This document shows, in pieces, positions 1,139 through 27,997 of a stretch of DNA of 29,383 nucleotides. Within the stretch, counting starts at the first letter, position 1, and each line of letters begins with the position of its first letter. The stretch is from a virus. A program made the translations under genes and the position numbers. The stretch spans positions 1 to 29,383 of IMG/VR virus record IMGVR_UViG_3300042874_000052; one strand, given 5' to 3'. The notes under the pieces were generated by a model that was not told the origin of the DNA, did no database searches, and worked only from the letters and a program-made list of their open reading frames with translations.

Positions 1139-1319
1139 ATTGGTTCATCCTTACGATTGCTTGTTTAACTTCATCCACCTTGGTGTAGGTGAAGATGGGT
1201 ACTTCTGCTTGCAGAGTATCCCTGTAGCAGGTAGTCCACTCTTCCGGCGTGACAACTTGGTGCCAACCGTGGGTATGCAGCATGAGATACCCGGCAGGAT
1301 TACTTGCCGATTGTTGCAT
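1086..1319 (-). CDS. Hypothetical protein, 77 aa
   Basis: I place the start at the ATG at 1319, which has GGAAG four bases upstream; the longer reading needs a TTG at 1334 without a site. An alternative ATG at 1283 would avoid overlapping the upstream Dps-like gene but has a weak site. The product is a small mixed alpha/beta protein (contains HGWHQVVTPEEW and VDEVKQAIVRM). No family is recognised. It overlaps the upstream gene by 20 bases and the downstream gene by about 50, so it is less secure than its neighbours. Confidence 0.5.
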   Translation of the reverse strand: MQQSASNPAGYLMLHTHGWHQVVTPEEWTTCYRDTLQAEVPIFTYTKVDEVKQAIVRMNQYAIATAPKQLQHLRPAG

Positions 1320-1719
1320 CGATCTTCCAGGCAAGTTTCTTGATCACAGTACAGTAGGTGCCGAGCTCTGTTTCGAGGGCCGGGTCTGCGGTAGCGTATA
1401 GTTTCTCGGCAGATCCCAAGAGAACATTAAGGTCACTGCAAACAGAACCGAGCATACCCGGCACATTTTTGTCAAAGGCATCATCGGGTATAGCGGATTC
1501 ATTGATGAGATCCTTCAGGTTGAACGAATACTTTTCGCCATCTTGCCGCAGGAGCTCGACGAATGTGTCATGCCAAGCTGACAGTTTCTCGTAGACTTTT
1601 CCGAAGAGTGCATGATACTGCGGGAAGTTCGATCCGGTCACATTGAAGTGATACACCTGAGCTTTGTAGGCTGCGATGTAGTTATCGGCGATCAGGTAGC
1701 AGAGTTTATTTTTTGTCAT
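1300..1719 (-). CDS. Dps-like mini-ferritin (DNA protection / ferroxidase family)
   Basis: Dps proteins form 12-subunit shells that oxidise and store iron with hydrogen peroxide and often bind DNA. The ferroxidase signature is visible: H24 in HFNVTG, H36 in QYHALF, and D51 and E55 in AWHDTFVELL. The spacing H-12-H-15-D-4-E equals that of E. coli Dps H51, H63, D78 and E82; the position equal to D67 is Gly40. Length is 139 aa from the ATG at 1719, against about 167 in E. coli, the shortage being mostly at the N-terminus. I chose this start because GGAG lies six bases upstream; the longer reading starts 33 bases earlier. It overlaps the Tad2-like gene by 14 bases and is probably coupled to it. 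The role in infection is unknown; protection of phage DNA from oxidative damage is an inference. Confidence 0.8.
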   Translation of the reverse strand: MTKNKLCYLIADNYIAAYKAQVYHFNVTGSNFPQYHALFGKVYEKLSAWHDTFVELLRQDGEKYSFNLKDLINESAIPDDAFDKNVPGMLGSVCSDLNVLLGSAEKLYATADPALETELGTYCTVIKKLAWKIDATIGK

Positions 1720-2104
1720 TTTCTTCTCCGAAGATGAACCAGTCGTCACCAAGCAGGTCAGACTGAGAACATACCCAAGGGATCAGTGAACCGTCAGCAC
1801 AACGCAGGCATACATGATCACCATACCTGGCGATGTTGTCTCCGCCGTCGTTTGCGATTAGTGGCACACAACTGACCTTGAGAAAAGATACACGGACGTA
1901 GTACAGGAACATGTTCTTACCGTTCCAACTACGGCGCGACACCTTGTAACCGTCTCTCAATGCGTCAACAGCATGCCCGATATTCATTTTGAATTCCCTC
2001 TTCCCAGGTTGCTTCCCTTCAGGTTGCTTCTTCCCGAAGATCCTATCATAGTTCTCGTCGAACTGTTTCATATCAGCAGATCTTTGTGTGCTACCCTTGC
2101 TCAT
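1706..2104 (-). CDS. tad2-like: Tad2-like protein (DUF2829), candidate Thoeris anti-defence protein
   Basis: Residues 40-125 match the pattern of the DUF2829/Tad2 family as I know it: MNIGHAVDALRDGYKVSRR, then the W-NGK-MFL core (60-67), a variable loop, then RCADGSLIPW and SQSDLLGDDW (101-122). Tad2 proteins of other phages bind and sequester the cyclic ADP-ribose signal made by the Thoeris ThsB sensor. Here a Lys/Gln-rich extension of 39 residues precedes the domain. The ATG at 2104 has AAGGA eight bases upstream; a second ATG at 1987 with AGGGA upstream would give the bare domain, so two products are possible. The gene overlaps a 44-codon gene upstream and the Dps-like gene downstream. Family assignment is fairly firm; sponge activity is inferred. 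Confidence 0.82.
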   Translation of the reverse strand: MSKGSTQRSADMKQFDENYDRIFGKKQPEGKQPGKREFKMNIGHAVDALRDGYKVSRRSWNGKNMFLYYVRVSFLKVSCVPLIANDGGDNIARYGDHVCLRCADGSLIPWVCSQSDLLGDDWFIFGEENDKK

Positions 2105-2225
2105 CAGGGTTTCCTTCATCTTTAATCATTCGTTGCACTGACTCATTCAGGAGGATACGGAAGGTATCGTCAAAGAGAGTATCATCGGATTGTTCGTCGT
2201 ATTGCTCTTCGTAGGTGTAGTTCAT
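2091..2225 (-). CDS. Small acidic protein, 44 aa
   Basis: This short frame starts with an ATG that shares ATGA with the stop of the upstream gene, and ends inside the start region of the Tad2-like gene (14-base overlap). The product begins MNYTYEEQYDEQSDD and is strongly acidic, with a short amphipathic stretch around FRILLNESVQRMI. The ribosome binding site is weak, so translation probably depends on coupling. No family is recognised. Its position directly ahead of the Tad2-like gene makes it a possible partner, but nothing in the sequence proves that. Confidence 0.6.
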   Translation of the reverse strand: MNYTYEEQYDEQSDDTLFDDTFRILLNESVQRMIKDEGNPDEQG

Positions 2226-9269: not shown

Positions 9270-9740
9270 TTATTTTTCGATCGGTGGAAAGAACAGGTGA
9301 GTGAGGATCAGTTTGTTGATTTCGAGTGTGGGATACCCCTTGGTGATCCATCGGACGGCATCGATTCTCTTGTTGAGATATTGTGGTAGTCCCCAAACCG
9401 GGTCCACTGCAATGAGGCAGTCGAGCTTGTGGAGAATATTGGATTCTGCGTACGAGAGAATAGCTTGCGTTTGGGCGAAGAAGATGATCTCGAAGTGGAA
9501 GCATTCATGCGGGTACTCATTCAGCAGTTTGTTGACATGCTCGCTGCTAGTAGTATATGTCTTCCAATCGCTGGGACCGTACCGCCTAGTGCCTGTCTTG
9601 TTCGTTCGATGGAACTTCTTCTTCCCTATGTACATCTCACCGGTCAGGAGGAACGTTACTCGGTAGAGGAATCCGACGTGTTTTTCGGGGTCACCGTGGA
9701 ATCCAGGGACTTGCCAGTGGCCGTAGTATCCTTTTTGCAT
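9270..9740 (-). CDS. GIY-YIG family endonuclease, probably free-standing homing-type
   Basis: The nuclease core is visible: FLYRV (24-28) with MYIGKKKFH (36-44) forms the GIY-YIG pair, followed by a conserved DWKTYTTSSEHV segment (58-69) and the catalytic-type Glu at 99 in SYAESNIL. Many T7-like and T4-like phages carry such single-domain enzymes, which cut DNA and may spread their own gene. Length is 156 aa. The ATG at 9740 lies inside the 3' end of the exonuclease gene, an 85-base overlap, and has no clear ribosome binding site. The position between two essential replication genes fits an inserted homing element. Confidence 0.8.
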   Translation of the reverse strand: MQKGYYGHWQVPGFHGDPEKHVGFLYRVTFLLTGEMYIGKKKFHRTNKTGTRRYGPSDWKTYTTSSEHVNKLLNEYPHECFHFEIIFFAQTQAILSYAESNILHKLDCLIAVDPVWGLPQYLNKRIDAVRWITKGYPTLEINKLILTHLFFPPIEK

Positions 9741-14481: not shown

Positions 14482-15078
14482 TTATTTCAGGTTATTGCTG
14501 ACGTTGTAGAATGATCCTCGTGTGGACGCATCAAGTGCCAGCAGTAGCATAGTCTCAAGCTCGTACATGTGCTTGGCTTTACCCCACGCTAGGATGGTCC
14601 TATGAAAATCCATAGGTCGCTTGTTGAACTCCTCATTCATCATCTCGCTTGAGCAGATGTAACCGTCATCGAGCGTACCGGCGTGGTAACCGATATACTT
14701 CCTGTCGTTCAGACGGTCAATCCACATGTAGATAAACGCCTCACCTACTTCGTCTTGGCAGACTACCTTATCGACATCTGATGAATCAACACCGTCGATG
14801 TAGTTCTTCCAGAGCACCCATGAGTAGGAGAGCATGTGGTTACCCTTCGGACTCTTCCAGAGCACAATGAAGGAGGGTTTCCCTTCGTACTCTGTCAGGT
14901 GATCCTGCACCTGCTTGTTCCAGAGTCCTTTGTACTCCTTGTCACCTACCTTGACAGTGATCGATCGCCGCCCTTTGACATCACGATCTACTTCGACTTC
15001 ATCAACGACGCATGAGAAGATATCGAAGAATTTGTCACTGCCGCTTACAAAATGCTTTACGGTCTTTACGTGTTCCAT
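14482..15078 (-). CDS. GIY-YIG-like nuclease domain protein, 198 aa
   Basis: The C-terminal half carries a GIY-YIG-like core: FIYMWIDRLNDRKYIGYHAG (115-134), DDGYICSSEMM (137-147), DFHRTILAWG (157-166) and ELETMLL (173-179), matching the nuclease lineage in which a DDGYxCSS segment follows the YIG strand. The N-terminal 110 residues are beta-rich with SITVKVGDKEYKGLW and have no recognised domain; they may recognise the target. The ATG has AAGGGA close upstream. It is unrelated in overall build to the 156-aa GIY-YIG protein further along, so the two probably arrived separately. Confidence 0.75.
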   Translation of the reverse strand: MEHVKTVKHFVSGSDKFFDIFSCVVDEVEVDRDVKGRRSITVKVGDKEYKGLWNKQVQDHLTEYEGKPSFIVLWKSPKGNHMLSYSWVLWKNYIDGVDSSDVDKVVCQDEVGEAFIYMWIDRLNDRKYIGYHAGTLDDGYICSSEMMNEEFNKRPMDFHRTILAWGKAKHMYELETMLLLALDASTRGSFYNVSNNLK

Positions 15079-15096: not shown

Positions 15097-15354
15097 TTAA
15101 AGATCTTCGGGTACCACTATTCCATTCCGGCGAAGCATCCATATTACGTCTTTGGGGAGTTCGTAAATACCGTCGTAGTCTATGAGTTCACCTTTGTAGA
15201 ACCACAAGCCGCCACTGCTGAGTAGATCATCGTGGTTACGGTACATTTTGATACGTTCGAAGTATCCGTACTCAACCCCGAGAGCTATCTCTACGAGAGT
15301 ACCCGTTCTAGTGTTGAGGAATTGCTCCTCGTAGTAATAGACAGGATCGCTCAC
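15097..15354 (-). CDS. Hypothetical protein, 85 aa, GTG start
   Basis: The start is a GTG that shares GTGA with the stop of the upstream 64-codon gene. The protein is beta-rich and acidic with several aromatics (DPVYYYEEQFLNTRTGTLVEI, LWFYKGELIDYDGIY). No family is recognised. Its first ten codons are present again, ending at an early stop, in the neighbouring duplicated unit, so this gene lay at the edge of the duplicated segment. Confidence 0.65.
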   Translation of the reverse strand: MSDPVYYYEEQFLNTRTGTLVEIALGVEYGYFERIKMYRNHDDLLSSGGLWFYKGELIDYDGIYELPKDVIWMLRRNGIVVPEDL

Positions 15355-15545
15355 GGCAGCTTTACCATCTTGCCGGCCCAGATATCACCCACATTATAGG
15401 CGCCCGCCTCGAACTCGGTCACAATCATATAGAACTCACCCTCGTTAGCCCAACCATCACGGACCTCAAATCTAAGCTCTACTGTTTCACCGTTGTTGGA
15501 GGGTGTCCCGATCTCTCGAAGAGCCAACGTGATTACATTATCCAT
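15351..15545 (-). CDS. Small beta-rich protein, 64 aa, tandem paralogue A
   Basis: ATG with GAGG nine bases upstream. It aligns without gaps to the adjacent 64-codon gene, with about 41 identical positions by hand count; shared segments include SNNGETVE and WAGKM. Strands alternate with charged turns, suggesting a small beta-barrel or beta-sandwich. Function unknown. The stop forms GTGA with the next gene. Confidence 0.75.
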   Translation of the reverse strand: MDNVITLALREIGTPSNNGETVELRFEVRDGWANEGEFYMIVTEFEAGAYNVGDIWAGKMVKLP

Positions 15546-15549
15546 CAGG

Positions 15550-15582
15550 TTATACCTCGTAGTAATAGACAGGATCGCTCAC
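15550..15582 (-). pseudogene. Ten-codon remnant of the 85-aa gene
   Basis: GTG AGC GAT and the following codons repeat the first nine codons of the gene at 15354 (SDPVYYYE), then run into GTA TAA where the duplicated unit ends. It is a by-product of the tandem duplication and unlikely to encode a function, although it still forms GTG-to-stop overlap with the paralogue B gene. Confidence 0.7.
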
Positions 15583-15773
15583 GGTAGCTTTGCCATCTTG
15601 CCGGCCCAGGTATCATCTATCTTATTGCCGTCTGCTTCGTGCCCGGCTACAATCAGATAGAATCCACCTTGGTTAGTCCAACAATCACGGATCTCAAATC
15701 TAGGCTCTACCGTTTCGCCGTTGTTTGAAGTCTTTCCAATCTCTCGAATAGCTAATGTGATTATATTTTCCAT
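15579..15773 (-). CDS. Small beta-rich protein, 64 aa, tandem paralogue B
   Basis: Same length and fold pattern as paralogue A: begins MENIITLAIREIG and ends WAGKMAKLP. Differences concentrate in the second half (VAGHEADGNKIDDT against VTEFEAGAYNVGDI), while the N-terminal half stays close. This uneven divergence suggests altered specificity of one face rather than decay. ATG with GAGG upstream; it lies four bases after the stop of the 99-aa gene. Confidence 0.75.
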   Translation of the reverse strand: MENIITLAIREIGKTSNNGETVEPRFEIRDCWTNQGGFYLIVAGHEADGNKIDDTWAGKMAKLP

Positions 15774-27462: not shown

Positions 27463-27699
27463 CTACGCATCGACGTCCGGGCCACACAACTGCTCATGGA
27501 GGGCATGGAGGAAACTCCTCACCACTCCAAAAGAGTAGTCCTTGCTGATGGTTCTGTAGTTGGACACCGCTTCAGGAATGGATGAGTCCATCTCGCACAT
27601 GTCCCTCAACGTGACGAGCTCCCCTCGCGTCTCAACCTTGATCACGATCTCGATTGGACGAAAAGGTTCGACGGCTGGCCTCTGTGTGTAGATCAGCAT
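27463..27699 (-). CDS. Small protein of the FxPFxI family, 78 aa
   Basis: ATG with AAGGAG eight bases upstream. EPFRPIEIVIKVETRGELVTL aligns with the two relatives at 25705 and 27728. After the strand-turn-helix core comes SSIPEAVSN and a C-terminal helix (GVVRSFLHALHEQL). Function unknown. Confidence 0.75.
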   Translation of the reverse strand: MLIYTQRPAVEPFRPIEIVIKVETRGELVTLRDMCEMDSSIPEAVSNYRTISKDYSFGVVRSFLHALHEQLCGPDVDA

Positions 27700-27727: not shown

Positions 27728-27997
27728 TCACTTCAGGTAGCAGGTCTCTGTAGACGTATTCCTATTGCCCTCACCCAGCTGGCCCTCCACGCAGTTGAGT
27801 TGCGCCCTGACACCGTTGAGGAATTCGAAAGCGGTATCAGCTGCATCGGCACCGACACGTTCCCTCACTGCATTAGGGATGGAGATGTTCAGACCGACCA
27901 CGTTGATCAGCTCAAGGAGCTCACGCTCAGTCTCGATGAGGACCATCAGCGTGAATGGCTGGAAGGCTCTTTCAGGTTGTTCTCTGTCAAACATCAT
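27728..27997 (-). CDS. Small protein of the FxPFxI family, 89 aa
   Basis: Two adjacent ATG codons; AGGAG nine bases before the first. RAFQPFTLMVLIETERELLEL and ISIPNAVRE match the neighbouring relative at 27463, so the two form a tandem pair; the C-terminal helix (TAFEFLNGVRAQL) is followed by a polar tail. Function unknown. Confidence 0.75.
   Translation of the reverse strand: MMFDREQPERAFQPFTLMVLIETERELLELINVVGLNISIPNAVRERVGADAADTAFEFLNGVRAQLNCVEGQLGEGNRNTSTETCYLK

Follow-up and report, generated by a model that had tools for sequence, protein, structure and literature searches.

The analyzed stretch of DNA, referred to as the window, is one IMG/VR virus record of 29,383 bases, which derives from metagenome data and represents a T7-like phage. 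It contains a gene that probably encodes a two-part protein, in which a signal sponge of the Tad2 family is fused to a microprotein resident at the same locus. The name SKGS was coined in this analysis for the microprotein family. One more Tad2 member would be ordinary, as Tad2 is already a known counter-defence protein. The new aspect is that the domain is joined to a microprotein which hundreds of environmental phages conserve and which has no match among the family models searched. The main value lies in this widespread, uncharacterised microprotein, which is exposed by a new architectural variant of a counter-defence family. The features of the locus are listed in Table 1.

Table 1. Coordinates of the SKGS-Tad2 fusion gene, its parts and its downstream neighbour in the window.
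Feature	Position	Strand	Remarks
SKGS-Tad2 fusion gene, 132 aa (MSKGST...NDKK)	1706..2104	-	stop codon at 1706-1708
SKGS module, 26 aa, MSKGSTQRSADMKQFDENYDRIFGKK	2027..2104	-	profile of 31 other members, E 2.5e-13
Linker, 13 aa, QPEGKQPGKREFK	1988..2026	-	unstructured by prediction; its DNA includes the GAGG upstream of the internal ATG
Tad2-like domain, 93 aa, internal ATG (MNIGHAV...) to last codon	1709..1987	-	PF11195, PDB relatives, AlphaFold2 model, Foldseek
Candidate internal translation start, ATG at 1987	1985..2001	-	GAGG about 9 bases ahead, anti-Shine-Dalgarno pairing -6.9 kcal/mol
Preferred upstream start, ATG at 2104	2104..2118	-	AAGGA seven to eight bases ahead, -5.7 kcal/mol
Dps/ferritin-like gene, directly downstream	1303..1719	-	PF00210, E 2.3e-8; synteny anchor

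The reading frame, its strand and its domain motifs agree with a preliminary description of this DNA, as judged by the ORF itself, the profile match and the invariant residues. The frame stays open up to a further ATG at 2119, which would give a form of 137 amino acids. The start at 2104, already chosen in that description, is preferred over it, because its Shine-Dalgarno duplex is stronger (-5.7 versus -1.7 kcal/mol) and because the protein then begins exactly with MSKGS, the conserved N-terminus of the module in 185 sequences. The end of the fusion gene is overlapped by the Dps/ferritin-like gene.

Toward its C-terminus, the protein has a true domain of the Tad2 family. The Pfam model PF11195 covers residues 40-124 of the 132-residue protein (45-129 of the 137-residue form) with an E-value of 3.5e-20, and the score of 72.8 bits compares with a curated cut-off of 25. 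For the 93-residue domain the E-value is 1.1e-20. Sequence searches recovered the solved relatives ModTad2, HgmTad2, SptTad2, and SPO1 Tad2. The residues that are invariant among the relatives (A, G, R, WNGK, M, W, SQ, D, DW), as defined on 12 and on 26 of them, are all kept in the window protein. An AlphaFold2 monomer model was built from 26 sequences; an alignment that combined modules with Tad2 domains placed them incorrectly and was left out of the fold prediction. The domain was modeled with a pLDDT of mostly 89-96, and a Foldseek search at E<0.001 returned 24 chains, all of the Tad2 family and including entries titled AcrIIA7, and nothing else. Membership in the Tad2 family, proposed earlier from the motifs, is thus borne out by the profile, by similarity to solved Tad2 proteins and by the predicted fold.

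Among the solved structures, ModTad2 from a Myroides odoratus prophage (PDB 8v3e, 9eib) is the best match by sequence (E 4e-16) as well as by fold, with the hisADPR-bound entry at the top of the Foldseek list (E 8.6e-10). It shares with the window domain a loop of similar length between the beta strands, but has only 88-89 amino acids and lacks the N-terminal module. SPO1 Tad2 (gp34.65; PDB 8sme-8smg, 8wje), the founding anti-Thoeris protein, has the same Pfam domain and fold, but it is a bare domain with a very short N-terminus and is about 34% identical. The same fold is also found in HgmTad2/AcrIIA7 (8kbi-8kbm), which differs by a longer insertion, and in AcrIIA7 (9kzr). The latter has 158 amino acids with the Tad2 domain at about 50-150 and is, like the window protein, N-terminally extended, but no search aligned its extension to the SKGS module.

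The Tad2 family includes binders of gcADPR, His-ADPR, and cyclic dinucleotides, and some members are named AcrIIA7. Because of these mixed ligands and the AcrIIA7-named members, the family name does not tell exactly which signal is bound. It is very unlikely that the window protein acts as an anti-CRISPR of the AcrIIA7 kind instead of as an anti-Thoeris protein. The AcrIIA7-named chains are indeed Tad2-like (E about 1e-10 to 4e-12), but according to the structure titles the deposited HgmTad2/AcrIIA7 binds cADPR and cGG, so that a nucleotide sponge suits both names, and ModTad2 with hisADPR is the nearest of the solved relatives.

It had been suggested in the preliminary description that an extended Tad2 would be new. 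For extended Tad2 proteins as such this does not hold, as they are common. In phrog_1048, phrog_872, and phrog_30130 the Tad2 domain is located at the C-terminus. Among 74 relatives with a readable start, 41 have at most 8 residues ahead of the domain; in 13 others this stretch exceeds 60 residues if the first possible start is used. Many of the long IMG/VR relatives have a common N-terminal domain of about 75 amino acids (YGTK...YRGW...GYLVEY...GYISWSPK). In this phrog_1048/phrog_872 type (L001, L002, L010, L011, L293) the Tad2 domain likewise lies C-terminal to an extra domain, but the extension (YGTK...GYISWSPK) is not SKGS and is absent from the window protein. The novelty stands for the SKGS extension, which was not found in any of about 80 other Tad2 relatives that were checked, nor in particular in the 74 with a readable N-terminus. 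IMG/VR yielded no second SKGS-Tad2 fusion when it was searched with a joint DNA pattern that allowed 12-22 residues of spacing.

The extension of 39 residues had been described as rich in lysine and glutamine, and 8 Lys and 4 Gln were counted. The conserved module in its first 26 residues had been missed. These residues fit the microprotein profile M[S/G]KGSxxRP...Fxx-N[W/Y/F]D-x-IFGKK, with a serine in the window module where proline is usual after Arg8. A profile of 31 other members, from which the window was excluded, found the extension at E 2.5e-13 among 2,803 sequences, whereas the best of 2000 shuffled extensions reached E 0.05. Low-complexity filler is ruled out by this test. According to the AlphaFold2 model, the module is a single helix over residues 4-23, at modest confidence, and the linker lacks secondary structure (pLDDT about 64). 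When isolate phages were searched with only the extension as the query, there was one weak match, an unannotated ORF of 30 residues (MGKGSSRRPTDMDKFSTNYDNIFGKK) in a metagenomic podovirus record, and a motif was therefore suspected.

The SKGS module is carried by at least 305 IMG/VR stretches (L013-L197, L318-L437). They were collected with three degenerate DNA patterns for M-S/G-KGS ... N-W/Y/F-D-x-I-F-G, which matched at least 120, 65, and at least 120 stretches, respectively. When 257 Gb of GTDB genomes were scanned with one of the patterns, it matched only once, which indicates for this pattern that chance matches are rare and that bacterial chromosomes nearly lack the module. The two halves of the motif are separated by 24, 25, or 26 codons, and the codons of fixed residues differ in their third positions. 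Conservation thus acts on the protein and not on the DNA, since the spacing changes in whole codons and the third positions are degenerate. Most copies are stand-alone ORFs of 27-60 amino acids, and some are located N-terminal to a glutaredoxin (PF00462, E 7.9e-13) or to several cysteine-rich domains. No family for the module part was found at E<=1 in Pfam, PHROGs, and NCBIfam, a profile search of the PDB gave no match to it, and neither MSKGS nor IFGKK turned up in phage-related papers in the literature search.

A fixed operon partner of the module was ruled out, as its neighbours vary and comprise nuclease-like, portal, terminase, HNH, and Dps genes, with names read from the sequence. At about 28 loci, among them L429, L107, and L079, a stand-alone SKGS gene directly precedes a large portal-like gene, and a terminase-like gene is often found upstream. 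At about 30 other loci it directly precedes a short gene that reads as nuclease-like.

The combination with unrelated domains (glutaredoxin, several cysteine-rich domains, Tad2) and the strong conservation of a short helix-forming peptide would fit a docking peptide, which binds a conserved partner in the host or the virion and delivers the sponge, e.g., to where the immune signal is made. This reading is considered unlikely, as most copies stand alone in many contexts (portal, terminase, nuclease, and Dps), for which an activity of its own would fit equally well. The proposed two-part protein is open to both roles, i.e., the module may be an independent activity that is carried along or a docking peptide, and it could also be inert once fused.

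The origin of the fusion was traced by comparing loci. Over the length available for each locus, the gene order in L099, L101, and L025 corresponds to that of the window: RNA polymerase, ribonucleotide reductase (RNR), small genes, the module, the Dps-like gene, a gene of 85-97 amino acids, and a gene on the opposite strand. The module is a stand-alone gene of 32-43 amino acids in these three loci; a fourth locus, L116, follows this order up to its module, where it ends. PF11195 had no match in the records of L099, L101, L116, and L025, which are fragments. The stand-alone microproteins of related phages (L099, L101, L025, L280, and others) show the same module in the same position before the Dps-like gene, but comprise 30-67 amino acids without a Tad2 domain.

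Furthermore, a scan of IMG/VR with the Dps-like protein gave 37 loci, and only one record was found among 50,697 phage records. A stand-alone module lies directly before the Dps-like gene, always at most 350 bases upstream, in 30 of the 36 assessable loci, which is not a tally of independent events because several contigs are near-identical or repeat earlier loci. Twenty-four of the 30 were recognized by pattern and six by ORF reading (L281, L302, L305, L306, L307, and L311), and one of the 37 loci (L303) was not assessable. A separate Tad2 gene of 169 amino acids was identified in the interval between the RNR and Dps genes of a related phage (L293:2335-2841). Its N-terminal domain is of the GYISWSPK type, an SKGS module is lacking, and its position points to a recurrent slot for counter-defence between the two genes. 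Based on the stand-alone module before Dps in most loci and on this separate Tad2 gene, the Tad2 domain appears to have been fused to a resident microgene. In the simplest scenario, the RNR-Dps interval gains Tad2 genes, one of which was joined in frame to the microgene in the window phage.

The internal ATG with its own ribosome binding site, which had been pointed out before, could be verified. GAGG precedes position 1987 with a spacing of 9 bases, and the pairing energy is at least equal to that of most real starts in the window. It is matched by about 10% of the 225 internal ATGs in other genes. Weaker pairing (+1.2 to -6.1 kcal/mol) is seen at the corresponding site of 17 other Tad2 proteins with N-terminal extensions. 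The methionine at the start of the domain is the natural start of bare Tad2 proteins, but on its own it is no proof of internal initiation, because many other fused Tad2 proteins keep it as well. Dual products from 2104 and 1987 are plausible from the sequence and may be regarded as possible only, as a Shine-Dalgarno match of this strength could arise by chance and the methionine is often kept in fusions.

Less probably, though with some weight, the locus could be read as two genes sharing one frame, with bare Tad2 from 1987 as the main product and the long form as tolerated read-through. The internal Shine-Dalgarno sequence is stronger than the one ahead of 2104 and than the corresponding site in the 17 other extended proteins, MNIG aligns to the natural start of bare Tad2 proteins, and AAGGA precedes the internal ATG in SKGS-glutaredoxin fusions, too. 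However, the linker is in frame and free of stop codons, although stops would not be selected against if only the bare domain were used, and a comparable Shine-Dalgarno sequence occurs at one in ten internal ATGs.

According to a review of the family (PMC12043709), gcADPR is sequestered by Tad2 tetramers, some of which have a second site that binds cyclic dinucleotides. ModTad2 was reported to bind His-ADPR (PMC13299392). For the preferred two-part protein, the SKGS microprotein would have been the resident gene of the locus before the fusion. The Tad2 domain would then have arrived behind this microgene, and both frames would have been joined by the short flexible linker. The Tad2 domain most likely forms the usual homotetramer, which most likely captures a nucleotide that serves the host as an immune signal and thereby keeps the effector inactive. 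This signal would most likely be the product of a Thoeris TIR protein, with His-ADPR and a glycosidic cyclic ADP-ribose as the candidates. The tetramer would bear four modules as protruding short helices, which would keep their own binding activity. As the start codon of Tad2 and its ribosome binding site were retained, bare Tad2 may be produced as well. It is rather improbable that SKGS is a docking peptide used phage-wide, by which enzymes and sponges are placed at one conserved partner, with an addressed sponge next to a free form from 1987.

The fusion gives the first functional hint for the microprotein family, and a partner shared by the stand-alone and the fused forms would provide a handle on it. 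In addition, the RNR-Dps interval stands out as a site of counter-defence gene gain in this phage group.

The window phage had no match in a near-identity search of phage isolate records. Its RNA polymerase is closest to that of Roseobacter phage CRP-7 among phage proteins, with 32% identity. Besides this T7-type RNA polymerase, the window encodes a primase-helicase, a DNA polymerase, RNR, and many small genes. With few exceptions, they lie on the minus strand. The gene names were read off the translations and are backed by neighbour clusters. A homing endonuclease of the SegE-type GIY-YIG group is encoded at 9270-9740 on the minus strand (PF19835, E 4.5e-21), and a second, weak match to this type was found at 14482-15078. 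The adjoining minus-strand genes at 15351-15545 and 15579-15773, each coding for 64 amino acids, are clearly alike in sequence and probably go back to a local duplication. Finally, two adjoining small genes on the minus strand (27463-27699 and 27728-27997) share a common pattern (EPFRPIEIVIKVETRGELVTL and RAFQPFTLMVLIETERELLEL, respectively) and are apparently paralogues.
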